A DNA stretch of 21,651 nucleotides from positions 1-21,651 of the IMG/VR virus record IMGVR_UViG_3300009419_001042; one strand, 5' to 3'. Source of the DNA: a virus. Under the pieces are notes generated by a model. The model ran no database searches and was not told where the DNA came from. It was given only the letters and a program-made list of their open reading frames with translations. Made by a program: the position numbers and the translations under genes. The stretch's first letter is position 1. Each line of letters starts with the position of its first letter. This document shows positions 4,146-19,535 of this stretch, in pieces.

Positions 4146-4922
4146 ATGAATGTTTATTGGTTTGGAAGAACTCACAACAATAATCTTTCTGAAATGTCTT
4201 TAGATTTAGAAAGCAATGGCTTCAGCGGAATCCTTTTGCCATATGGGTCAGATGTTGGAGATTATTTTGTACAGATAGCCAGATCACTTAAAAGTGATCA
4301 GAATTTTACTTACATTGTTGCAGTCAGACCTTACACAATTTCTCCACAAAATCTTGGAATGATAATTAAATCATTAAACTCTATAGATGTTGGCAGGGTT
4401 TGGATTAATTTTGTGTCTGGGCAAATTTTAGATGAAGAAAAAAGTATGGGCGGGATAATCGGTGAGATAAATGATACATCCAGCCTTTATGAAAGAAGAG
4501 AATATTTAAAAAACTATATACCAATCTTCTTTGATTTTTGTAAAAAGTTAAAAATAGAAACAAAGATATGCATATCTGGTAAAGGTGATGATATGAACTC
4601 CCTTGTTGAGAACTATGGAGACTACAGTTTTGCAGCATACCAGTCACATGCTGAAGTGGCTAAGTACAAAAAAATATCAAAACCAAGAGTTTTATCTATG
4701 TTTCCACTTATAGAAGATGATGAAGAAAAATTTAATAAATTAAAAAACAGCAAAGAACTTGGATCTGATATAAGATTAACAACAACTTTGGAGTTAAAAG
4801 AAATCATTAACGAATTAAAGTTAGATGGAATAGAAGGTGTGATGTTTTATTGTTACTGGCCTGAAGAGTATAGAATTAAGATAGTTAATTTTGTTAAAGA
4901 TAACAAAAATCTTTTTACTTGA
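4146..4922 (+). CDS. SsuD-like luciferase-family protein, copy 1
   Basis: 258 residues with the TIM-barrel pattern of bacterial luciferase-like, FMNH2-dependent alkanesulfonate monooxygenases (SsuD). Visible in order: N-terminal YWF strand with TH (4-10), ESNGFSGILLPYG (22-34), VAVRPYTISPQ (58-68), RVWINFVSG (84-92), YERREYLKNY (115-124) and a final GIEGVMFYCYWP strand. Full SsuD is about 380 residues, so roughly 110-120 are missing, mostly mid-protein. If active it would oxidise a small organic substrate using reduced flavin; the substrate is unknown. Two diverged paralogs lie at 10106 and 15553. It begins directly after the preceding stop. Confidence 0.75.
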   Translation: MNVYWFGRTHNNNLSEMSLDLESNGFSGILLPYGSDVGDYFVQIARSLKSDQNFTYIVAVRPYTISPQNLGMIIKSLNSIDVGRVWINFVSGQILDEEKSMGGIIGEINDTSSLYERREYLKNYIPIFFDFCKKLKIETKICISGKGDDMNSLVENYGDYSFAAYQSHAEVAKYKKISKPRVLSMFPLIEDDEEKFNKLKNSKELGSDIRLTTTLELKEIINELKLDGIEGVMFYCYWPEEYRIKIVNFVKDNKNLFT

Positions 4923-5267: not shown

Positions 5268-5356
5268 TTGAAATTTTGTTTTTAATTCCAGCATCTATTA
5301 TTGTTGGGTATTCACTATGCTACTTTATAATGACATATAAGGTTGATCAAGATTAA
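5264..5356 (+). CDS. 30-residue single-pass membrane peptide
   Basis: Nearly all of residues 2-23 is hydrophobic (IEILFLIPASIIVGYSLCYFI), ending in a charged tail. It overlaps the previous stop (ATGA) and the TTG start of the following phosphatase gene. The tight coupling suggests it is translated. Confidence 0.5.
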   Translation: MIEILFLIPASIIVGYSLCYFIMTYKVDQD

Positions 5357-5801
5357 GCCTAGAGCATACATATTTGATGTAGACGGAACATTGGCCAATG
5401 TAGATCCTTATCTTCACCTTGTTCGTGGCTCCAATAGGGACTACAATGCTTTTCATGAGGCCTCTATCGATGCCCTGCCAAACTTTGAAGTAATTCAAAT
5501 GGTGAACGAAGCCTTCTTTGATCAGATGCATATTCTTATTGTTACATCAAGGAAGGAGGTTTGGCGTGGACTAACTTCGCTTTGGCTTGCTAAAAATGAT
5601 ATTGGTCACCATGCACTTTATATGCGTAGCGATGAAGACAATAGGCCAGACTATGAAGTTAAAAAAGATATATTACTTAAGATTAAAAAACACTGGAATG
5701 TCCTGCATGCTGTAGATGATAACCCAAATGTTATAAGACTTTGGGAAGAGTACGGGATTTCTACAACCAAAATTGGGACATGGGATGGGGATAAATCCTA
5801 A
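5343..5801 (+). CDS. HAD-family phosphatase, PNK 3'-phosphatase type
   Basis: 152 residues from a TTG start; no in-frame ATG precedes the motif. HAD motif I FDVDGTLA (about 11-18) holds both catalytic aspartates, motif II is IVTSRKE (about 65-71), and the late DDNPN (about 123-127) supplies the Mg-binding acids. The spacing fits the phosphatase domain of phage T4-type polynucleotide kinase/phosphatase, which removes 3' phosphates during RNA or DNA repair; no kinase P-loop domain is attached. Such enzymes often act with RNA ligase to repair tRNA cut by host defences, which would suit the nearby tRNA cluster (inference). Confidence 0.75.
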   Translation: MIKIKPRAYIFDVDGTLANVDPYLHLVRGSNRDYNAFHEASIDALPNFEVIQMVNEAFFDQMHILIVTSRKEVWRGLTSLWLAKNDIGHHALYMRSDEDNRPDYEVKKDILLKIKKHWNVLHAVDDNPNVIRLWEEYGISTTKIGTWDGDKS

Positions 5802-6850: not shown

Positions 6851-6925
6851 GCACCAGTAGCCAAGTTGGTTAAGGCCCCGAACTCATAATTCGGTTATTC
6901 GTAGGTTCAAGTCCTACCTGGTGTA
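6851..6925 (+). tRNA. tRNA-Met (CAT)
   Basis: Acceptor stem GCACCAG pairs with CTGGTGT (one G-U). Anticodon stem CCGAA/TTCGG encloses CTCATAA, anticodon CAT at 6885-6887. T-loop GGTTCAAGTCC is present. CAT could mean elongator Met, or Ile if modified; initiator features are not obvious. Confidence 0.9.
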
Positions 6926-6929
6926 CTAC

Positions 6930-7003
6930 ACATCTGTAACTCAGTTGGTTAGAGTACCTGCCTTATATGCAGAGAGCCGAAGGTTCAAGTCCTTCCAGAT
7001 GTA
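6930..7003 (+). tRNA. tRNA-Ile (TAT)
   Basis: Acceptor ACATCTG pairs with CAGATGT, D-stem ACTC/GAGT, anticodon loop CTTATAT with TAT at 6964-6966, T-arm GAAGG-TTCAAGT-CCTTC. The outermost anticodon-stem pair is a C-A mismatch. It would read AUA, a codon common in AT-rich genomes and rare in GC-rich hosts. Confidence 0.85.
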
Positions 7004-7007
7004 CTAA

Positions 7008-7080
7008 GTCTTCATCGTCTAGTGGCCTAGGACTCTGCCCTTTCACGGCAGCAACACGGATTCGAATTCCGTTGGAGATA
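7008..7080 (+). tRNA. tRNA-Glu (TTC)
   Basis: Acceptor GTCTTCA pairs with TGGAGAT (two G-U pairs). Anticodon stem CTGCC/GGCAG, loop CTTTCAC, anticodon TTC at 7042-7044. Lies four bases after tRNA-Ile. Confidence 0.88.
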
Positions 7081-7084
7081 CAAT

Positions 7085-7156
7085 ACCTCTGTAACTCAGC
7101 GGAAGAGTAGCGGACTTCTAATCCGTTTGTCGCAGGTTCGATTCCTGCCAGGGGTG
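7085..7156 (+). tRNA. tRNA-Arg (TCT)
   Basis: Acceptor ACCTCTG pairs with CAGGGGT. Anticodon stem GCGGA/TCCGT, loop CTTCTAA, anticodon TCT at 7117-7119, T-loop GGTTCGATTCC. Reads AGA, again an AT-rich codon. The end lies two bases from the stop of the minus-strand gene at 7159. Confidence 0.9.
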
Positions 7157-7158
7157 CT

Positions 7159-9801: not shown

Positions 9802-10119
9802 TTATTTTACTTGATTGGTTGTCTTGCCTCCGCCTGATGACTTCTTTGCAGGAGCCTTCTTAGCGGTCTTCTTTACTACCTTTGCAGACTTAACTGCTGC
9901 GTCTACCTCATCTACTGAAGGCATCTTTCCAAATGCCTTGTCATTAGGGTTGGCTGCTCTTAATACTACGGGCACAAGTGCTCCAAGTAGTGAGTATGCT
10001 AGTGTCTGCGGATCTGTAACTCCAGATGCATACATCGCTGTTGCTGCACCAAGGACTGAGCGTCCGTATGATGCAAGTGCTGCCTTGATCTGTGAGTTTG
10101 TTTCGTTATGGTGTGTCAT
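9802..10119 (-). CDS. Small phage protein with hydrophobic core and KKSSGGG tail
   Basis: 105 residues. Residues about 13-58 are Ala/Leu-rich (GAATAMYASGVTDPQTLAYSLLGALVPVVLRAA), perhaps one or two membrane segments or a packed helix pair. The C-terminal ~30 residues are Lys/Ala/Pro-rich (KKTAKKAPAKKSSGGGK) and closely match the tail of the endolysin. The ribosome site AGGAGG is strong. The start overlaps the end of the luciferase-like gene by 14 bases. It may be a structural or lysis-associated protein. Confidence 0.7.
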   Translation of the reverse strand: MTHHNETNSQIKAALASYGRSVLGAATAMYASGVTDPQTLAYSLLGALVPVVLRAANPNDKAFGKMPSVDEVDAAVKSAKVVKKTAKKAPAKKSSGGGKTTNQVK

Positions 10120-10900
10120 TTTTTCCTCCTAGGATATTTGTTTCTTTGTTAGTAAAATAACTAACAAAACTTAGCGTGTGCTTTTTTTCTATATATTCGT
10201 TGGGTTCTGCTTCGTCCATTAAAATATTGTTTATATTTTTATTTTTTAATTCGTTTAATAATGCTTCAAACTCATCAAAGGTAAAGTGCTGAACATCACT
10301 TCTTGTATTTTTTTCTATCAGTGGTAAAAGTTCTTCTCTTGTTTTTCTTATTACTGGAGAAATATAGATCATTATTTTGCTTGAATCATTAGTGCTAAAA
10401 TTGTTTTGCTTGTATGACTGGTATGGAATAATAACTTTATCGCCAGAAACCTTTTCCAGTAAAATAGGATTAGTAACAGACACATAAAAGTTTGGTGTTT
10501 CTCCAGCGGTATTTTTTAAAACCTTTAAATATTCTACCAAGTTCTCAGATCTTTCTAGGTTTGAAGAAAGGTCATTTACTTCACCTTGAATTCCACCCAC
10601 CTGTTTGTCATATTCCGATATCCAACCAGTTATAAAATTAATTATGATTCTGTCTTTTGATATTTTTTGAAATGAATTGTTTATCATAGACAAATATTGT
10701 GGAGATATAACATGAGGTCTTATGGCAACCATATATTTTATTTTTTGATTTACATCTATTGCATTTGCTATTTTTACAAATTGATCATCACTATAAAACG
10801 AGTACACCAAAAGAACCCCATAAAAACCAGATTTTTCTAACTCTAAAGATATTTCTTTTATATCATAAGAATTTGATCTTTCAAACCAAAAAAAATTCAT
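10106..10900 (-). CDS. SsuD-like luciferase-family protein, copy 2
   Basis: 264 residues. The same landmarks as copy 1: FFWF start, EKSGFYGVLLVYS, VAIRPHVISPQYL (58-70), DRIIINFITG (83-92), GGIQGEVNDLSSNLERSE (102-119). The C-terminal half is more diverged, and it ends inside the next gene. The IxFxxG flavin-region strand is kept, but several loops of full-length SsuD are gone. Activity is uncertain; it may be an enzyme or a degenerate binding protein. Coupled (ATGA) to the small cysteine protein upstream. Confidence 0.7.
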   Translation of the reverse strand: MNFFWFERSNSYDIKEISLELEKSGFYGVLLVYSFYSDDQFVKIANAIDVNQKIKYMVAIRPHVISPQYLSMINNSFQKISKDRIIINFITGWISEYDKQVGGIQGEVNDLSSNLERSENLVEYLKVLKNTAGETPNFYVSVTNPILLEKVSGDKVIIPYQSYKQNNFSTNDSSKIMIYISPVIRKTREELLPLIEKNTRSDVQHFTFDEFEALLNELKNKNINNILMDEAEPNEYIEKKHTLSFVSYFTNKETNILGGKNDTP

Positions 10901-12976: not shown

Positions 12977-13306
12977 CTACCTATCTAAACCAATAACACG
13001 CATGATCTCTTTTAGCGTGTACTGTTTATCTTTAGTTAGTTTTGCAACCTCTTCTTCATTCAATGCCTTTGGTGTAAGGCTTACCATTGGATTTTTTTCT
13101 GTCTCATCCATGTCTAAAAATCCTTCACTCCACAACGACATTGCTTCGTTAGAAAAATATCTTGATATTTCTTCGTGAAGTTGTGGATTTACTTCAATTA
13201 ATTTTTCTGTAAAGTTGTACAATGGTTCCCCAGTTTCAATATCTATCCCTGCAACCTCCAAACATCCGTTAAGGATAAGCCTGTCTATTTCATCAAACTC
13301 ATCCAT
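12977..13306 (-). CDS. Hypothetical acidic protein
   Basis: 109 residues from ATG 13306; that start overlaps the oxygenase gene by 8 bases, while the longer frame from 13393 would overlap it by 95. Mostly helical and acidic, with the C-terminal segment KDKQYTLKEIMRVIGLDR. Unknown function, co-transcribed with the oxygenase. Confidence 0.65.
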   Translation of the reverse strand: MDEFDEIDRLILNGCLEVAGIDIETGEPLYNFTEKLIEVNPQLHEEISRYFSNEAMSLWSEGFLDMDETEKNPMVSLTPKALNEEEVAKLTKDKQYTLKEIMRVIGLDR

Positions 13307-13925
13307 TTTGCCATCCAGTCTGAAACTCAACTCTATTTTCCCAGAACCCTGGAACAATATACTTTTCTCCTGAGAGAACTGGCTTTGAAGCATGGAAGTA
13401 AGGCTTCCTTGATGGGAACACCATAATGCTTCCAGCAGTTGGCTTTATAAAAATACCTTGATCTTCAAATTCAATCTCACCACCAGTGTAGTCGTCATTT
13501 AAATAAAGAACAACAGAGATAGTTCTTGACTTATCGTCATCATAGGTGTCTGTATGTTTGCCCATCTCACCTCCAACAGAATATTTGCTTATTGATATTG
13601 GACATAGCAAACCAATACTAAGTCCAGTATGAAAAGACTCATAGTCTTTTGATGCATAGAGTATTGCATCAGTTATTTGCTTTTCTATGTCCCTACATTG
13701 GCTATATGCTTCATGATTTTTATCAAAAAGATGTTCTCTTATCATCTTTTGTTTTCCAAATACATATGTAGACTGATATGCTGCCCACTTGAACCATTTA
13801 GAAATTCCAGTTTTATCTGTTAATAGGTGATCTATTTTTTCTATATCCTCAACCAACTTTAAAGGATCTTGTATAACATTTTCATAATAGTATACATTTT
13901 TTTCTAAAATATTTTTTGTGATCAC
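13299..13925 (-). CDS. 2OG-Fe(II) oxygenase, copy 3
   Basis: 208 residues. Ligands H124 and D126 (GKHTDTYDDD), core strand ISVVLYLNDDYTGGEIEF (136-153), KPTAGSIMVFPS (161-172), H178, and K188 in place of the usual Arg for 2-oxoglutarate. About 110 N-terminal residues differ from the other two copies. It overlaps the nuclease gene (ATGA) upstream and the 12977 gene downstream. Likely a protein or small-molecule hydroxylase; substrate unknown. Confidence 0.85.
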   Translation of the reverse strand: MITKNILEKNVYYYENVIQDPLKLVEDIEKIDHLLTDKTGISKWFKWAAYQSTYVFGKQKMIREHLFDKNHEAYSQCRDIEKQITDAILYASKDYESFHTGLSIGLLCPISISKYSVGGEMGKHTDTYDDDKSRTISVVLYLNDDYTGGEIEFEDQGIFIKPTAGSIMVFPSRKPYFHASKPVLSGEKYIVPGFWENRVEFQTGWQNG

Positions 13926-14329
13926 TTTCCAGAAATCTTTCTAGCCTTTGCAAGTGCTTGAAAATCTTTGATCTTTGTTTCCCCCATATAGCCCCAAGCA
14001 TGACCATCATTAATCATCTTGTCATTGATAGACTCTGTATCTCCATCAAGGTATACCCAGCCAAGAATACGACCATACTTCTCCGAAGAGTCCATCTTCT
14101 CTGTCTTGATGACTACAGACTTAGCACTGTCAATAGCAGCCTTTAAATAAGCCTTTGCTTCCAGTCCTAAAGCCTTTTCAGCCTTGTCTGCTGTGCGAGA
14201 CTCAGGCGTGTCGATACCAGCCAGTCTCACTCTAGAACTAAAAGAAATGTCAAACCCTAAATCAATATCTACATCGATGGTATCTCCATCAACGACCTTT
14301 GTTACTTTCTTTACATAATATTCAAACAT
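13922..14329 (-). CDS. Staphylococcal-nuclease-like (thermonuclease) protein
   Basis: 135 residues from ATG 14329, which overlaps the DUF2061-like stop by one base (TAATG). The SNase fold is clear: VVDGDTIDVDIDLG, RVRLAGIDTPES with the catalytic Arg, the KAYLKAAI helix, SSEKYGRILGWVYLDGD with the second catalytic Glu and Arg, then a C-terminal helix. It probably cleaves DNA or RNA with Ca2+. No signal peptide, so it acts in the cell; maybe host nucleic-acid degradation. Confidence 0.85.
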   Translation of the reverse strand: MFEYYVKKVTKVVDGDTIDVDIDLGFDISFSSRVRLAGIDTPESRTADKAEKALGLEAKAYLKAAIDSAKSVVIKTEKMDSSEKYGRILGWVYLDGDTESINDKMINDGHAWGYMGETKIKDFQALAKARKISGK

Positions 14330-14532
14330 TACTTTCTCCCCCATTGTATATAGTTCCATCCACGCTCATGTGCGTAGTAGATGAATATTTTAACTACCGT
14401 TTCCCAAAACGCAATCGTTACAGAAAGAGCAGTATTTCTTGTTATGACATAGGCAACAGCAACAGAGGAAAGTGTTCCCCATATGCGATAACTTAATGCC
14501 TTAACAAATGATCTTGTTTTGGTTACTTTCAT
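14329..14532 (-). CDS. DUF2061-like membrane protein, copy 1
   Basis: 67 residues from ATG 14532, which overlaps the preceding stop (ATGA). Pattern: RSFVKALSYRIWGT, two hydrophobic segments (about 15-30 and 38-52), then YYAHERGW and WGRK. That matches my memory of the DUF2061 family, small inner-membrane proteins. Copies 2 and 3 lie at 14529 and 16926. Role unknown; proximity to the APS-kinase-like gene is suggestive. Confidence 0.7.
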   Translation of the reverse strand: MKVTKTRSFVKALSYRIWGTLSSVAVAYVITRNTALSVTIAFWETVVKIFIYYAHERGWNYIQWGRK

Positions 14533-14732
14533 TCTTTGCCCCACCCAACAGCATTCCAAATTCTTTCATGATAATAGTATGCCACAAAGTTAACCCCATT
14601 GGTTATTAGTGTAGCAATAGTAGCCAGACTAATATCTTCGCTCAAAGCATAAAGAGTTACAAACCCTGAAACCATTGCGACAACTCTCCATGTTAAAGAC
14701 TTAACAAGTGATCTACTTTTCTTTACGCTCAT
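14529..14732 (-). CDS. DUF2061-like membrane protein, copy 2
   Basis: 67 residues. Shares the RSLVKSLTWRVV start, two hydrophobic segments and the YYHERIWNAVGWGKE tail. GGAG lies six bases before the ATG at 14732, so the longer frame from 14744 is not needed. Directly follows the small ORF 14713 and precedes copy 1. Confidence 0.75.
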   Translation of the reverse strand: MSVKKSRSLVKSLTWRVVAMVSGFVTLYALSEDISLATIATLITNGVNFVAYYYHERIWNAVGWGKE

Positions 14733-14841
14733 CTTTGTCTCCAAACATTATTCGCTCTTCTGCTTCGTTCATTAAGCGACCAGACTCTTCTAAATAATTA
14801 AAGACCCAACTGCTTGCGTTTTTCAGTAGCCGAAATAGCAT
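14713..14841 (-). CDS. Possible small overlapping protein
   Basis: 42 residues (ending RIMFGDKDERKEK), overlapping the APS-kinase-like gene by 44 bases and DUF2061-like copy 2 by 20. A shorter start at an internal Met would reduce the overlap. Helical and charged. The overlap makes this uncertain. Confidence 0.4.
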   Translation of the reverse strand: MLFRLLKNASSWVFNYLEESGRLMNEAEERIMFGDKDERKEK

Positions 14842-15556
14842 GAATGTCTGCCCCCAAATCTACTTGTTCAATCTTGTATCCTACATCTCTACCGTATACG
14901 ATGTTAGTAATGTTAGGTAGTCTTAGTACTAATGCACCATCCATAAAGTCGTCCTTGGCAATATATTCTTTTACCTGATCAAACTTAAGTGGATCTTTCT
15001 CACTGGTATTATAGGTATTACGAACTCCCAGCAAAACCTGCTCTGTTCTCTTACCTGCCTCTTTGTAAAGGGCGTGGTGTCCTTCATGCCATGGCTGATA
15101 TCTGCCCAGCATAAGGGTTGTAGGGGCTGTCCAATCGTGTAACTGGCAAGCAGCAATGATTAAATCAGCCTCTTCTTCTACTGTCATACCACAAGGGATT
15201 CGGACATCGCAGGACTCTGGATCTTCCCACATCTTGTTTGTATCTTCAAATCTTCCAGACTCAATTCTGTCTACCCAAACTAAAATATCTGGCTTGCCAA
15301 ATGCTGCACGAGTCAAGTCTGTTGGGCATACAAAGTCAACAATTACTGGAGCAACACCTTGCTTAGAGATAAGGCGAGCCATATCTCCCATGCGCCGTGC
15401 CTGCTCAATTCTGTCTTCAGGGCTAAAGCCTAGGTCTGAGTTTACTGTTGCACGAACCTCATCTGCATTAAGATGAATAGCGTTAATTCTTTCTTTGAGT
15501 GCCTTGGCTAACTCTGTCTTGCCTGCACCTGGCAGACCTATAATCTGAATAATCAT
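14798..15556 (-). CDS. APS-kinase-like / nucleotidyltransferase fusion
   Basis: 252 residues, two domains. Residues 1-140: P-loop GLPGAGKT (7-14), NADEVRATVNSDLGFSPEDRIEQARR (30-55), typical of CysC (ATP + adenylyl sulfate to PAPS). Residues 148-252: GRYQPWHEGH (151-160) with the HxGH motif, and ISATEKRK (241-248), like the ISxTxxR motif of nucleotidylyltransferases (NMNAT/ATP-sulfurylase superfamily). The order matches animal PAPS synthase, but the second domain is too short for a normal ATP sulfurylase, so its substrate is open. The start overlaps the luciferase-like copy 3 stop (ATGA). Confidence 0.75.
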   Translation of the reverse strand: MIIQIIGLPGAGKTELAKALKERINAIHLNADEVRATVNSDLGFSPEDRIEQARRMGDMARLISKQGVAPVIVDFVCPTDLTRAAFGKPDILVWVDRIESGRFEDTNKMWEDPESCDVRIPCGMTVEEEADLIIAACQLHDWTAPTTLMLGRYQPWHEGHHALYKEAGKRTEQVLLGVRNTYNTSEKDPLKFDQVKEYIAKDDFMDGALVLRLPNITNIVYGRDVGYKIEQVDLGADIHAISATEKRKQLGL

Positions 15557-16395
15557 TTTTTTCCCATCTCTTCATTTATTTCTTTAATTAAATCATTAAT
15601 TAAAATATTATCTTTTTCTTTTAACGGGCTATCTTTTCCAAACAAGTCCCACCTGTGAGTGTTGATCAGAACATCTGATACTCCATACTCTTCAAGTTCA
15701 AGAAGTTGTTTTTTTACGCTATCTCTTGTACCAATTGTTGACATATCTAGAAATCTAGAACTTTGTTTAAATAGGTACTCTTTGTAATCTTCAACTTCTT
15801 TTTCTGTTTCTAGTATAACAGGTGTAGCCATAACCATTATTTTTTTTATTCCTTTAAACCTGTCCATATTATTTTTGTAATCATCAATAACTGATAAAGA
15901 AGTTTCAGAAAACATTCTAGCAGTCTCTACTGTATACTCTGAAAAACCACTAAATACCATTTCTGGTTTTTTACTTATCACTGGCATTTCATTATATTGT
16001 TTAATAAAATTCCTTAAAAATGTTGTTCTTTTTACTATACTATCTAATGCTTCTGTGTCTCCATAGACATCCATCTGTGGTTTTTCTCCAGAGGTACTTT
16101 TTTCATCTCCAGCGATCCAGTTAAAAATTAACCTATCGGGCTCTATTTGATTAAAGGCCTCTGTTACCATGGCACAATATTGTGGGCTTATATGGTATGG
16201 CCTTAGAGCAATCATATATTTTAACTTTTGTCCTGGAACAAGTGCAGCAGCACTTTTTACAAGATAGTCTGGAGAGTCTGAATGAAATGTCAATAGAACC
16301 GATTCATACCCAAAAGACTCTAATTGAAAAGAAAGATCCCTCAAACCTTTAGCGTCTAAGGGATTTCCTCTAAACATGTAGTGAAACTTTAGCAC
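15553..16395 (-). CDS. SsuD-like luciferase-family protein, copy 3
   Basis: 280 residues from a GTG start that directly follows the preceding stop. Landmarks: ESFGYESVLLTFHSD (26-40), MIALRPYHISPQYCAMVTEAF (61-81), DRLIFNWIAGD (87-97), a GDTEALDSIVKRTTFL segment like the SsuD Arg/Tyr helix, and a final GVSDVLINTHRW strand. It is about 100 residues shorter than SsuD. Translationally coupled to the APS-kinase-like fusion, the best hint that this family works on sulfur compounds here. Confidence 0.75.
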   Translation of the reverse strand: MLKFHYMFRGNPLDAKGLRDLSFQLESFGYESVLLTFHSDSPDYLVKSAAALVPGQKLKYMIALRPYHISPQYCAMVTEAFNQIEPDRLIFNWIAGDEKSTSGEKPQMDVYGDTEALDSIVKRTTFLRNFIKQYNEMPVISKKPEMVFSGFSEYTVETARMFSETSLSVIDDYKNNMDRFKGIKKIMVMATPVILETEKEVEDYKEYLFKQSSRFLDMSTIGTRDSVKKQLLELEEYGVSDVLINTHRWDLFGKDSPLKEKDNILINDLIKEINEEMGKK

Positions 16396-16623
16396 TTATC
16401 TTAACTTTTCTCGTTCGTCAGTAACAGTAATTGCAAACTTCATCATCTTTTCATATCCGACTGAATCATCCATAATCTTATTGTAGTGATGACCACAAAA
16501 TAACAGTTCTCCATTTAGCCCAACAACTTGAACTAAGGCTTCTGCTGCACATGAATCACATCTATCGATTGCCTTAAGCACCCATTCTTTGATTTCTTCA
16601 GGTGTTTCTATCATGGTATTCAT
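16396..16623 (-). CDS. DUF7455-like zinc protein
   Basis: 75 residues from ATG 16623; a start at 16614 or the longer frame from 16668 is possible. RCDSCAAEALVQVVGLNGELLFCGHHYNK (about 21-50) has the CxxC...CxHH pattern I associate with the actinobacterial family DUF7455. Zinc probably. It begins just after the FmdB-like stop and is followed at once by luciferase-like copy 3. Confidence 0.7.
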   Translation of the reverse strand: MNTMIETPEEIKEWVLKAIDRCDSCAAEALVQVVGLNGELLFCGHHYNKIMDDSVGYEKMMKFAITVTDEREKLR

Positions 16624-16633
16624 AGTATACTGC

Positions 16634-16819
16634 CTATTTCTTTCTGTTATCAGTGGAATAAAATCCACTACCGTTGAAAACTGCTCCTACATTAGAGTAT
16701 ACACGAACCAAAGAAGTATTGCAAGTTTCACATGTATATCCAGGATCATTGTCCTTAATAGACCGTTCCTTTATATATCTTTGTGCACATGGCATACAAT
16801 CATATTCGTACAAGGCCAT
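16634..16819 (-). CDS. FmdB-type zinc-ribbon protein
   Basis: 61 residues from ATG 16819, which is used because the MALYEYDC start matches the family. CMPC (8-11) and CETC (30-33) form the ribbon; the C-terminus VFNGSGFYSTD is the FmdB signature. These are putative regulators of unclear role. No strong ribosome site, but the previous gene ends three bases upstream. Confidence 0.8.
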   Translation of the reverse strand: MALYEYDCMPCAQRYIKERSIKDNDPGYTCETCNTSLVRVYSNVGAVFNGSGFYSTDNRKK

Positions 16820-16821
16820 GT

Positions 16822-16926
16822 TTATTTCTTCTTTGCTTTTACTGTCCAATAAGGTAGGTTTAGTTTGTCTCCACCCCACTCATAACCCAAAGCCTTTACT
16901 ACAAACTTAATAATTTTAATTCTCAT
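16822..16926 (-). CDS. 34-residue basic microprotein
   Basis: Starts one base into the preceding stop (TAATG) and ends before the FmdB gene. Peptide is Lys- and aromatic-rich (MRIKIIKFVVKALGYEWGG ... YWTVKAKKK). Coupling on both sides supports it. Unknown. Confidence 0.55.
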   Translation of the reverse strand: MRIKIIKFVVKALGYEWGGDKLNLPYWTVKAKKK

Positions 16927-17126
16927 TACTTTACCTTCTTTCCAAACCTTGCCCACAGTCTTTCGTGTACAAAGTATCCTAATGCTTCAATAGCGATGTA
17001 AAGAATTGCACCAAGACTTGCGTACTCCCATTCACCAGTAAATATGTAAATGATTCCAGCAAGAACTACAAGGTGAAATGTTTCCCAACTAATTGTTTTA
17101 AGTGATGACCTCTTAGTTGATTCCAT
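16926..17126 (-). CDS. DUF2061-like membrane protein, copy 3
   Basis: 66 residues: RSSLKTISWETFHLVVLAG, two hydrophobic segments, then FVHERLWARFGKK. More diverged than copies 1 and 2. Starts inside the endolysin stop (TAATG), so it is translated with the endolysin. Confidence 0.75.
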   Translation of the reverse strand: MESTKRSSLKTISWETFHLVVLAGIIYIFTGEWEYASLGAILYIAIEALGYFVHERLWARFGKKVK

Positions 17127-17764
17127 TATAGTGCCACACTGCCCTTTCCTCCGCCACCAGAAGACTTCTTTGCTGCTGGCTTTGGTGCTGCTTTCTTAAC
17201 TGGTGCTGCAGTTGTTGCAGATGCAACTACCTTGTTTAGTAGTGGAGCATTCTCTTCACCAGTATAGACTGGACGGCCCCAACCAACTACAGCGTTAACT
17301 AACTTCTTCTTGTTATTCTTTACATATGCACGAGTTTTTTCTACGCACATTCCGCCATTGCGCTGATCTCCCTTTGCAGTTCCTGAAGTATTTCCCTCAA
17401 TAACTTGGATTGTTCCATCTCCGTTGTTCTTAATGCAAAGACCAACATGTGAAATACGATTTACACCATCTTCTGGGAAATCAAAATAGATCCAATCTCC
17501 TGCTTGTGGATCATCGTTGCGAGCATCTGACCAACGCTCAGCCTTCTTGAACCAGTCTGCTGCTGCAACTGTTGATGCAGACTTAGGGAATGACTTTACT
17601 CCCGAAGTAAATGCACACCAAGAAACGAAGGACTGGCACCATGGCTGAAAATTAACCTTGATCCATGCACCGTACTTTGTTTCGTTATCTTTAGGGCCTT
17701 CAATTGTTCCCACTTCCTTCTTTGCAACCTCAATGATTGCTTCTAAACTACCTTTTGCTGCCAT
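17126..17764 (-). CDS. CHAP-domain endolysin
   Basis: 212 residues. CHAP core: WCQSFVSWC with catalytic C43, ADWF helix, PQAGDWIYFDFP, SHVGL with H106, VIEGNT (122-127), final VVGWGRPVY. Cleaves peptidoglycan, likely as amidase or endopeptidase. No signal peptide, so a holin should release it. The last ~35 residues are an Ala/Pro/Lys linker ending KKSSGGGGK, nearly the same as the end of 9802-10119; it could be a cell-wall anchor. The ribosome site AGGAGG lies seven bases from the ATG. Confidence 0.9.
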   Translation of the reverse strand: MAAKGSLEAIIEVAKKEVGTIEGPKDNETKYGAWIKVNFQPWCQSFVSWCAFTSGVKSFPKSASTVAAADWFKKAERWSDARNDDPQAGDWIYFDFPEDGVNRISHVGLCIKNNGDGTIQVIEGNTSGTAKGDQRNGGMCVEKTRAYVKNNKKKLVNAVVGWGRPVYTGEENAPLLNKVVASATTAAPVKKAAPKPAAKKSSGGGGKGSVAL

Positions 17765-17803: not shown

Positions 17804-17805
17804 CG

Positions 17806-17878
17806 CTGCCCCACCTGGCCTCGATCCAGGGACATCCGAATTAACAGTTCGGCACTCTACCAACTGAGTTATAGGGCA
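17806..17878 (-). tRNA. tRNA-Asn (GTT)
   Basis: Minus strand. Acceptor TGCCCTA pairs with TGGGGCA, anticodon loop CTGTTAA with GTT (+ strand 17843-17845), D-arm AACTCAGTTGGTAGAGT, T-loop GGATCGAGGCC. Lies apart from the plus-strand tRNA cluster, between the protease and the endolysin genes. Confidence 0.9.
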
Positions 17879-19001: not shown

Positions 19002-19030
19002 AGTACACCCCTAAGCGCTTATGATGTCAA
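19002..19030 (-). promoter_or_regulatory. Leaderless promoter of gene 18995
   Basis: Minus strand: TTGACA (19030-19025), 17 bases, TGTACT (19007-19002), TAATAT, ATG 18995. It overlaps the last codons of the proteasome-like gene. Confidence 0.7.
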
Positions 19031-19535
19031 CTGGTCCCATGCACGATGGGTTAAATTTAATTGCTGCAGATACTGCCTGATTAACTCTATTCCTTGCATT
19101 TTTTTGCTTGTCTGTTGCATATAAAACACCATAGGCATACTCTGATCCAGAGCCAATAGAAACATATGGTAATGAATACTTGGATAAAGACATATCTCCA
19201 GAACTATGCTCATAGATTTCTCCACGAATACCAATGATCAAACTAAGTTCGCCATCTTTAGATGTGTCAATCCAGAACTCGTTATAAAATTCACGAAGTT
19301 CCTTAATGAACTTGGTGTGCATATATTTATCTGTGTCTTTAATGTTGGGTGCTGATGGTCTAAAGTTGTGTCTAATTCTGTCACCATCCATTGATCCAGC
19401 GTATCCAATTAAGTAAGGTCCAACCTTCCAAACCTTTGGTGATTCAAGTGAAAGAATAACACCATCATCTGATGCTCCACGATCTCCAGCCATATAAATT
19501 TTATCTTCATGGCGTAAAGCAACAATACAGGTCAT
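19011..19535 (-). CDS. Proteasome-beta/HslV-like Ntn hydrolase
   Basis: 174 residues starting MTCIVAL. After loss of Met1 the first residue is Thr. D18 in AGDRGAS and K34 in SPKVWKVG then fall at positions 17 and 33, the exact Thr1-Asp17-Lys33 triad of the proteasome beta subunit. A later YVSIGSGSEYAYGVL segment matches the G-S-G region of that fold. The propeptide is only Met, as in HslV. It could be an active peptidase or a stand-alone Ntn hydrolase. Strong GGAGAGGG ribosome site. Its promoter carries a large palindrome. Confidence 0.8.
   Translation of the reverse strand: MTCIVALRHEDKIYMAGDRGASDDGVILSLESPKVWKVGPYLIGYAGSMDGDRIRHNFRPSAPNIKDTDKYMHTKFIKELREFYNEFWIDTSKDGELSLIIGIRGEIYEHSSGDMSLSKYSLPYVSIGSGSEYAYGVLYATDKQKNARNRVNQAVSAAIKFNPSCMGPVDIISA

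Follow-up and report, generated by a model that had tools for sequence, protein, structure and literature searches.

The fusion gene and its neighbours

The stretch of DNA analysed here, referred to as the window, is a single virus record of 21,651 bases in which a minus-strand run of overlapping or closely spaced genes includes one for a two-domain protein of 252 residues (14798..15556), a kinase-nucleotidyltransferase fusion that we call KNT. Pfam, fold and contact residues place an adenosine 5'-phosphosulfate (APS) kinase domain at its N-terminus (residues 1-140; 15137..15556, minus strand), and motifs, a match to nicotinamide mononucleotide (NMN) adenylyltransferases and fold place an HxGH nucleotidyltransferase, a predicted non-canonical ATP sulfurylase, at its C-terminus (residues 145-252; 14801..15124, minus strand). 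The run begins with a gene of the flavin-monooxygenase superfamily, SsuD-like copy 3 (15553..16395, minus strand), which, as a sequence-only reading of this DNA had noted, is coupled to the kinase fusion by four bases, ATGA being common to its end and to the start of KNT. KNT is followed by two small membrane proteins of the DUF2061 family, B (14529..14744, minus strand) and A (14329..14559, minus strand), whose genes are joined by the same overlap, the ATG of A at 14532 overlapping the stop of B, and then by genes for a nuclease and a 2-oxoglutarate (2OG)-Fe(II) oxygenase. All genes listed in the sequence-only reading are present, and the three DUF2061-like genes that it named, two after the fusion and a third, C, upstream, score above the Pfam cut-off (PF09834, 23.1 bits; A 57.9, B 52.5, C 47.5).

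We propose, with a probability of roughly 60%, that KNT is a compact bifunctional sulfate activator that converts sulfate to APS and APS to 3'-phosphoadenosine 5'-phosphosulfate (PAPS) for use by sulfotransferases, with the assistance of DUF2061. The C-terminal HxGH domain would join ATP and sulfate to form APS, in place of an ATP sulfurylase, and the N-terminal kinase would add the 3'-phosphate that turns APS into PAPS. DUF2061 B and A may anchor the activating enzyme at the membrane or help it there, and sulfotransferases encoded elsewhere in the phage would use PAPS to sulfate a phage or host molecule. The likely ATP sulfurylase domain had not been singled out in the sequence-only reading.

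KNT relatives are encoded in at least 594 viral stretches of the viral collection, and PHROG 10255, annotated 'kinase', spans KNT residues 1-251. A sample of 171 loci, the window's own counted once, falls into 35 clusters when grouped at 85% identity. Eight of the clusters have a DUF2061 gene starting within 600 bases downstream of KNT, in 110 of their 115 loci; the remaining 27 clusters have none there (0/56 loci, the contig ending too soon in 3). The KNT of four DUF2061-bearing clusters (L001, L024, L126, L021) is 79-100% identical to that of the window and that of the other four (L098, L122, L131, L139) is 38-42% identical, and the KNT-DUF2061 pair stays constant while the surrounding genes vary by locus. 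The order of kinase and DUF2061 is kept in the window's clade, so that a loss of gene order in relatives, one of the two refuting outcomes named in the sequence-only reading, did not occur. SsuD-like copy 3 has close relatives in 5 loci versus the at least 594 stretches for KNT, and as in most loci no SsuD-like gene adjoins KNT, it was rejected as the core of the module. A loose link between the two is nevertheless present, as SsuD-like genes lie next to KNT or to its DUF2061 in L053, L063, L067, L075, L078 and L082-L086, in varied arrangements, and they are optional partners. The core of the module is KNT with DUF2061 B and A (15556-14798 and 14744-14329) rather than SsuD; of the sulfur module first suggested for this region, these three genes remain.

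DUF2061 is tied to sulfate activation by gene fusions in bacteria. In Methylosinus (G018, L252/L262) it is fused to the C-terminus of CysN (DUF2061 64.2 bits; CysN 603 bits, cut-off 336), a second genome (G124, L304) has a DUF2061-CysN fusion, and in a third (G099, L305) it is fused to a CysN-APS kinase with the kinase lying between (kinase 194.8 bits, DUF2061 67.7). The earlier statement that DUF2061 is found near sulfate-assimilation genes thus holds for such fusions and for the cysI-cysH operons described below, and fails for most of the alphaproteobacterial loci sampled. DUF2061 is present in 26 of 142 alphaproteobacterial genomes, and at 30 fetched loci, covering about 1.5 kb per side (about 3 kb each, two pairs overlapping), a sulfur gene lies beside it or is fused to it in only four (L292, L297, L304, L305), so that the family as a whole is no marker of sulfur metabolism. 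A subtype can be told apart by two profiles made from bacterial sequences only, one from 6 sulfur-linked domains and the other from 12 others. All 127 phage DUF2061 proteins encoded downstream of KNT fit the sulfur-type profile better (median +38.6 bits), whereas the 46 encoded upstream have a median of -6.2 bits, 18 of them favouring the sulfur type. The motif K..(S/T)(W/Y)R, which was defined after viewing the sequences, occurs in 123/127 of the downstream proteins and in 0/46 of the upstream ones. In the window, A (76.0 vs 41.7 bits) and B (53.3 vs 40.8) are of the sulfur type.

DUF2061 C (16926..17126, minus strand) is of the other subtype (38.9 vs 48.9 bits) and its gene overlaps by one base (TAATG) that of a CHAP-domain protein directly upstream (17126..17764, minus strand; 44.4 bits, cut-off 26); among the 46 upstream DUF2061 genes, 24 begin no more than 350 bases past a CHAP match. 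We therefore rejected C as a part of the module, from which the upstream class differs; it could be a holin-like lysis partner. Four papers that name DUF2061 were found by full-text search, and at least two of them, an iron-response study and an iron/regulator study, list the family in tables.

A candidate sulfate-activating enzyme

The N-terminal domain of KNT is likely an APS kinase, as judged from its sequence and modelled fold. It matches Pfam APS_kinase (PF01583) with 56.2 bits (cut-off 21.1) over residues 2-84, positions 4-90 of the 152 of the profile. In a profile search of the PDB each of the first 21 matches is an APS kinase or a chain with such a domain (2yvu, E 9.4e-17), and the same holds for the 50 matches listed by Foldseek for the structure model of KNT, which has a mean predicted local distance difference test score (pLDDT) of 90.9. 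With VIA-align the first 30 matches of the model are APS-kinase domains (Z 16.4-18.6, 24-33% identity), followed by gluconate kinase as the next family (Z 15.8, 13% identity). According to the portion of the work on Mycobacterium tuberculosis CysC available to us, Asp480, Arg483, Phe492 and Arg497 contact APS (PMC4373884). These residues correspond to D32, R35, F44 and R49 of KNT, as deduced from the spacing in the DGD..R motif and from alignments to other APS kinases, and all four are invariant among the 33 aligned proteins over which we scored conservation; the lack of APS-binding residues, the other refuting outcome named in the sequence-only reading, thus did not occur. The P-loop residues G7, G12 and K13 are likewise kept in 33/33. 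The lid half of the domain is divergent: GR(F/Y).DTN.xF..P is conserved, and the region of Lys562 and Phe576 has no confident alignment.

The second domain, of about 110 residues, resembles a shortened NMN adenylyltransferase and carries the motifs GRYQPWHEGH, YGRDVGY and ISAT..R within residues 145-252. The HxGH residues, R152, R179, G222, R223, Y227, T244 and R247 are invariant (33/33), and the residues of HxGH, GR.VGY and ISAT..R as a whole are kept in 33 or 32 of the 33 proteins, except for D224 (24/33). Pfam gives a weak match to CTP_transf_like at residues 149-186 (18.5 bits, below the cut-off of 21). The fold is that of the phosphopantetheine, NMN and glycerol-3-phosphate nucleotidyltransferases (PPAT/NMNAT/GCT; Z 8.3-9.7 in the 50 VIA-align matches listed); ATP sulfurylase is absent among these 50, which is not evidence either way, and Foldseek with the second domain alone returned nothing below 0.001, the best value being 0.013. 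Canonical ATP sulfurylase is described as having an HXGH motif besides its QXRN and GRD loops (PMC3779200). In KNT, HxGH is invariant and the GR loop is kept in 33/33, its D in 24/33, which makes it only a candidate equivalent of the GRD loop of Sat. Since GRYQ at residues 151-154 replaces QXRN, KNT is not a member of the Sat family despite its HxGH and GR(D/G) loop, and accordingly PF01747 (Sat) matches neither the KNT of the window nor seven relatives nor two free-standing nucleotidyltransferases. We suggest R152, R179, R223 and R247 as candidate holders of sulfate. That this domain has ATP sulfurylase activity is less certain than the assignment of the kinase.

The argument for sulfate comes mainly from bacteria. 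A scan of bacterial and archaeal genomes yielded at least 351 KNT relatives among the candidates, of which 80 loci were kept. At many loci of SAR11, and at those of SAR86, the kinase (about 136 residues) and the nucleotidyltransferase (about 124-130 residues) are encoded by two genes, which lie next to each other or are separated by a few kilobases; other SAR11 loci have the fused form. At two loci (L214, L218) the gene order is sirohydrochlorin-chelatase-like, uroporphyrinogen methyltransferase, sulfite reductase, cysH, DUF2061, kinase, nucleotidyltransferase, with scores at L214 of 707 bits for sulfite reductase (cut-off 457) and 248 bits for cysH (cut-off 154). The alphaproteobacterial order to which L214 belongs is represented by six genomes in the collection. 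CysH is above its cut-off in all six, and five have cysI-cysH-DUF2061-kinase-nucleotidyltransferase, the contig of the sixth stopping at cysH, yet CysN is above cut-off in 0/6 and CysD in 0/6, the two sub-threshold CysD matches falling in cysH. As this reductive operon has the pair, and the usual activating step was not found, we suggest that the pair activates sulfate, and this is our main argument. Among 20 genomes with KNT relatives (at the loci L196, L197 and L199 the match is to the kinase half only), CysH is above cut-off in 10, CysN in 9 and Sat in 1; CysH without CysN or Sat above cut-off occurs in only two, both carrying the cysH-DUF2061-kinase-nucleotidyltransferase operon. In 9 of the 20 none of CysN, Sat and CysH is above cut-off, CysD not having been searched there, and therefore no other source of APS was seen in them.

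The second domain, whether fused or free-standing as in SAR11, SAR86 and the order of L214, would constitute a third class of ATP sulfurylase, with an NMN-adenylyltransferase-like fold and belonging neither to Sat nor to CysDN, and with APS kinase and DUF2061 would make up a minimal sulfate-activating system of abundant marine bacteria and phages; for this wider proposal we see the odds as even. At five SAR11 loci (L202, L205, L207, L216, L222) the kinase and nucleotidyltransferase genes are 2.3-6.4 kb apart, and the gap in L202, L207 and L222 holds one to three large secreted-looking proteins. The L202 pair adjoins a gene whose best match is dimethylsulfoniopropionate demethylase, below cut-off (242 vs 410 bits).

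Sulfotransferases accompany KNT at some loci. At least 5 of the 22 bacterial loci inspected have one above its Pfam cut-off beside KNT (L178 148.7 bits; L187 142.9, divergent and about 0.6 kb off; L180 79.8; L192 55.7; L181 26.2, cut-off 22), the neighbours of the other 17 having been judged by eye or motif without a scan. In the phage locus L163 a sulfotransferase overlaps KNT (62.5 bits), and in L096, L101, L104 and L109 a protein with a sulfotransferase-like P-loop start lies just before KNT or overlaps it; that of L096 reaches 19.0 bits with Stf0 (cut-off 22), that of L101 matches no sulfotransferase family and those of L104 and L109 are placed by resemblance only. In 20 long KNT-bearing phage records PF13469 has matches at E <=0.1 in six, two of them above cut-off; as the phage counts come from KNT-bearing records only, they are no measure of enrichment. 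At 26 divergent phage KNT loci, where 129 of the 134 listed neighbour genes were scanned, the commonest family is the 2OG-Fe(II) oxygenase (7 members), followed by glycosyltransferase (5) and AhpC (5), and the sulfotransferase families have two to three members each, some surely identical genes. In the window's own clade 3 of 12 of the long records have a protein above a sulfotransferase cut-off (G030 42.5 bits, G029 29.7, G036 67.7 with Sulfotransfer_4). Close to its sulfotransferase, G036 has a gene that can be aligned with the SsuD-like family, at 20% identity to copy 3 and without any Pfam match.

A phage record of 111,870 bases, G025, holds in one stretch all 17 window proteins compared, 16 at 100% and one at 98.9% identity. 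PF13469 matched nothing in it. Two of its genes, one on either side of a 2OG oxygenase, are similar to L267:1949-2605 (E 4e-44 and 4e-38), a gene that itself has no Pfam match at 0.01. One of these two G025 genes can also be aligned with two L266 genes (20 and 24%), of which one exceeds the Sulfotransfer_3 cut-off. A PDB profile search with a G025 candidate gave chance-level E-values only, protein-tyrosine sulfotransferase being among them at 0.65. The resemblance to sulfotransferases is no more than suggestive. The two candidates are related, have a P-loop-like start and lie (L274:4020-6043) a few kilobases ahead of genes that look structural, collagen-like ones included. It is conceivable that virion parts are both hydroxylated and sulfated in G025.

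Several observations weigh against KNT as a supplier of PAPS. At most KNT loci no sulfotransferase was seen beside it, none is annotated next to KNT in the Casjensviridae phages or in phage DLP_6, and the two G025 candidates have no Pfam sulfotransferase match. In the kinase, the Mg-site Asp478 in the LDGD stretch of CysC is replaced by N30 (Asn in 31/33, D in 1, E in 1), and the equivalog cut-off of TIGR00455 is missed (59.7 vs 138.7 bits), the match stopping at residue 83. In the second domain the sulfate-binding QXRN motif is absent and the best profile matches are NMN adenylyltransferases (2qjt, E 1e-10; 1f9a, E 4.1e-10). Four Casjensviridae records (L088-L091) have a 444-base gene overlapping KNT upstream, and the one tested, that of L089, encodes a NADAR protein (92.6 bits), the other three having no functional name. 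Sat is present in one of the six genomes of the bacterial order of L214 (G023), beside genes that, read by eye, look like sugar metabolism, and as these genomes are small (0.6-1.1 Mb) and of unreported completeness, the absence of a gene from them is no proof. The scarcity of sulfur genes at alphaproteobacterial DUF2061 loci belongs here as well.

Alternative substrates and pathways

KNT could instead be an ordinary phage cysC, in which the kinase alone is active, on host APS, and boosts reductive sulfate assimilation, the second domain being an accessory. This is the published reading, phage cysC genes being taken as APS kinases of assimilatory sulfate metabolism in the portions of three papers available to us (PMC10914622, PMC9529941, PMC8190135). 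It sits poorly with the near-complete retention of the motif residues of the second domain, with the persistence of that domain as a separate gene in bacteria and with the nine KNT-relative genomes in which none of CysN, Sat and CysH is above cut-off. PAPS reductase, moreover, was found in 0/20 of the long KNT-bearing phage records. We consider this explanation unlikely, and on the same count we rejected the supply of PAPS for reduction in the phage. Of the two purposes that the sequence-only reading had offered, sulfation of a phage or host molecule is favoured, as some phage records have sulfotransferases, over the feeding of host sulfur metabolism.

A slightly smaller probability goes to NAD salvage, in which the P-loop domain would phosphorylate nicotinamide riboside and the HxGH domain would make NAD from NMN. 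NadR has these same two activities, in a domain order opposite to that of KNT. The best matches of the HxGH half support this explanation, as does the NMN adenylyltransferase signature GR.QPFHxGH, present in the second domain and common to both families as GR(F/Y)QPFHxGH, and the NADAR gene that overlaps KNT in a Casjensviridae phage fits NAD metabolism. However, the match is confined to the first 81-84 of 121 profile positions, and the free-standing nucleotidyltransferases (n=11) have 117-129 residues versus 168-181 in archaeal NMN adenylyltransferases. The cut-offs for that activity are far off, both for KNT (TIGR01527, 18.1 vs 181.2 bits; NF002243, 23.5 vs 127) and for a free-standing nucleotidyltransferase (36.8 and 37.3 bits, respectively). 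Sequence, fold and the four contact residues all identify the kinase half as an APS kinase, and the genomic context is one of cysI-cysH and sulfotransferases. A gene annotated as MazG-like lies near KNT in 3 of the 4 Casjensviridae records, a possible nucleotide-metabolism context for KNT.

Another small anion or an alcohol phosphate could also be the substrate, the HxGH domain making a nucleoside monophosphate-X and the kinase adding a 3'-phosphate to it. Nucleotidyl anhydrides other than APS can be substrates of APS-kinase folds, and in Campylobacter phosphoramidate synthesis an APS-kinase homologue adds a 3'-phosphate. The missing QXRN motif would agree with such a substrate, whereas the cysI-cysH operon and the DUF2061-CysN fusions point to sulfate, and we regard this possibility as improbable, somewhat more so than NAD salvage.

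The SsuD-like proteins bear on a last explanation, in which they would free sulfite from sulfonates and together with KNT feed host sulfur. Besides copy 3 the window encodes copy 2 (10106..10900, minus strand) and copy 1 (4146..4922, plus strand). With 35.9 bits for copy 3, 49.7 for copy 2 and 38.0 for copy 1 against a TIGR03565 cut-off of 518.2, the label given to them from sequence alone stands at superfamily level only. His228, which we take to be a functional residue of SsuD, is found in 0/20 family members; Arg226, whose role is named in a title cited in the portion of PMC8234197 available to us, is found in 2/20 (L020, L067), the three window copies not being among them. In copies 3, 2 and 1 the Arg226 and His228 positions read M/T, Y/S and S/F, respectively. 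Although the nearest structures of the family profile are MsuD (E 6.7e-18) and SsuD (E 2.3e-13), and such genes adjoin KNT or its DUF2061 in the further loci given above, the feeding of sulfonate sulfur is very improbable, as the copies have 258-280 residues, the family aligns with SsuD (380 residues) over residues 27-245 only, neither position is kept in the copies, the 20 phage records have no PAPS reductase and a copy mostly does not adjoin KNT.

Host, remaining genes and known systems

The presence of a WhiB gene in the window (42.1 bits, cut-off 23.6) suggests an actinobacterial host. Genomes of acI Actinobacteria lack assimilatory sulfate reduction, according to the available part of PMC5301498. 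If the host is of the acI type, a lone APS kinase would find little APS to act on because that pathway is lacking, and therefore, by reasoning only, a fused activator would be independent of the host for its APS. Downstream of DUF2061 A the run continues with a staphylococcal-nuclease-type endonuclease (13922..14359, minus strand; Pfam SNase 62.0 bits, PHROG 452) and the 2OG-Fe(II) oxygenase (13299..13925, minus strand; 2OG-FeII_Oxy_3, 55.8 bits). Such oxygenases are abundant, and a blastp search of G025 with the third of the window's copies gives 10 genes, among them the three copies of the window itself. The window also encodes a polynucleotide-kinase-type phosphatase of the haloacid dehalogenase (HAD) type (5343-5801; 77.1 bits, cut-off 27.6), a proteasome-subunit-like Ntn hydrolase (19011-19535; 29.3 bits, cut-off 22.4) and five tRNA genes (6851-7157 and 17805-17878), those for Met, Ile(tat), Glu and Arg(tct) being consecutive and that for Asn lying on the opposite strand.

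KNT may represent an undescribed route of sulfate activation in microbes and phages. Candidatus Pelagibacter ubique was scored as lacking cysDNCHIJ and sat, in the portion of PMC5069961 available. If the second domain makes APS, SAR11 and SAR86 would have an unrecognised ATP sulfurylase, PAPS would be available to cells thought unable to activate sulfate, and phages could make it in hosts without sulfate assimilation. Phage 'cysC' genes of this kind would then have to be reinterpreted, from boosting cysteine synthesis to sulfating something, and DUF2061 would gain a role. Phage cysC genes have been published: 62 from freshwater phages, the phage transcripts outnumbering those of non-phage origin in some samples and transcription being reported for Rotsee Lake (PMC10914622), and others from trench and sulfur phages (PMC9529941, PMC8190135). 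In the open-access literature we found no description of the second domain of KNT, of DUF2061 as its partner or as a link to sulfur, or of the cysH-DUF2061-kinase-nucleotidyltransferase operon.

Among known systems, the SsuD and MsuD alkanesulfonate monooxygenases are the nearest structures of the window's optional partners, which are shorter, far below the equivalog cut-off and without the residues at the Arg226 and His228 positions. NadM, of the PF01467 superfamily, shares with the second domain of KNT the front half with GR(F/Y)QPFHxGH and a terminal T..R motif, whereas the KNT domain is about 50 residues shorter, has its back half rebuilt around YGRDVGY and was seen in no NAD context outside the Casjensviridae loci. 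CysN or CysN-APS kinase with a C-terminal DUF2061 (L252/L262, L304, L305) ties the same DUF2061 subtype to sulfate activation; the activator is CysN with or without APS kinase in these fusions and would be KNT in the phage module. The phage cysC auxiliary metabolic genes in print (PMC10914622, PMC9529941) are, like KNT, phage-borne homologues of APS kinase, and are presented as APS kinases for reductive assimilation, a second domain, DUF2061 and sulfotransferases not being mentioned in the available portions of those papers. The closest parallel is the bifunctional PAPS synthase (PAPSS), which like KNT combines an APS kinase and an HxGH nucleotidyltransferase in one chain. Human PAPSS1 also has its kinase domain first and aligns over most of the KNT model, with an unlike packing of the domains (root-mean-square deviation 14.6-16.5), and its chains have 562-590 residues as compared with 252 in KNT, whose second domain of about 110 residues is not PF01747 and has no QXRN. 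The synthesis of PAPS by a fusion of kinase and nucleotidyltransferase is therefore known, and it is the form of it that KNT is predicted to represent that appears to be new.

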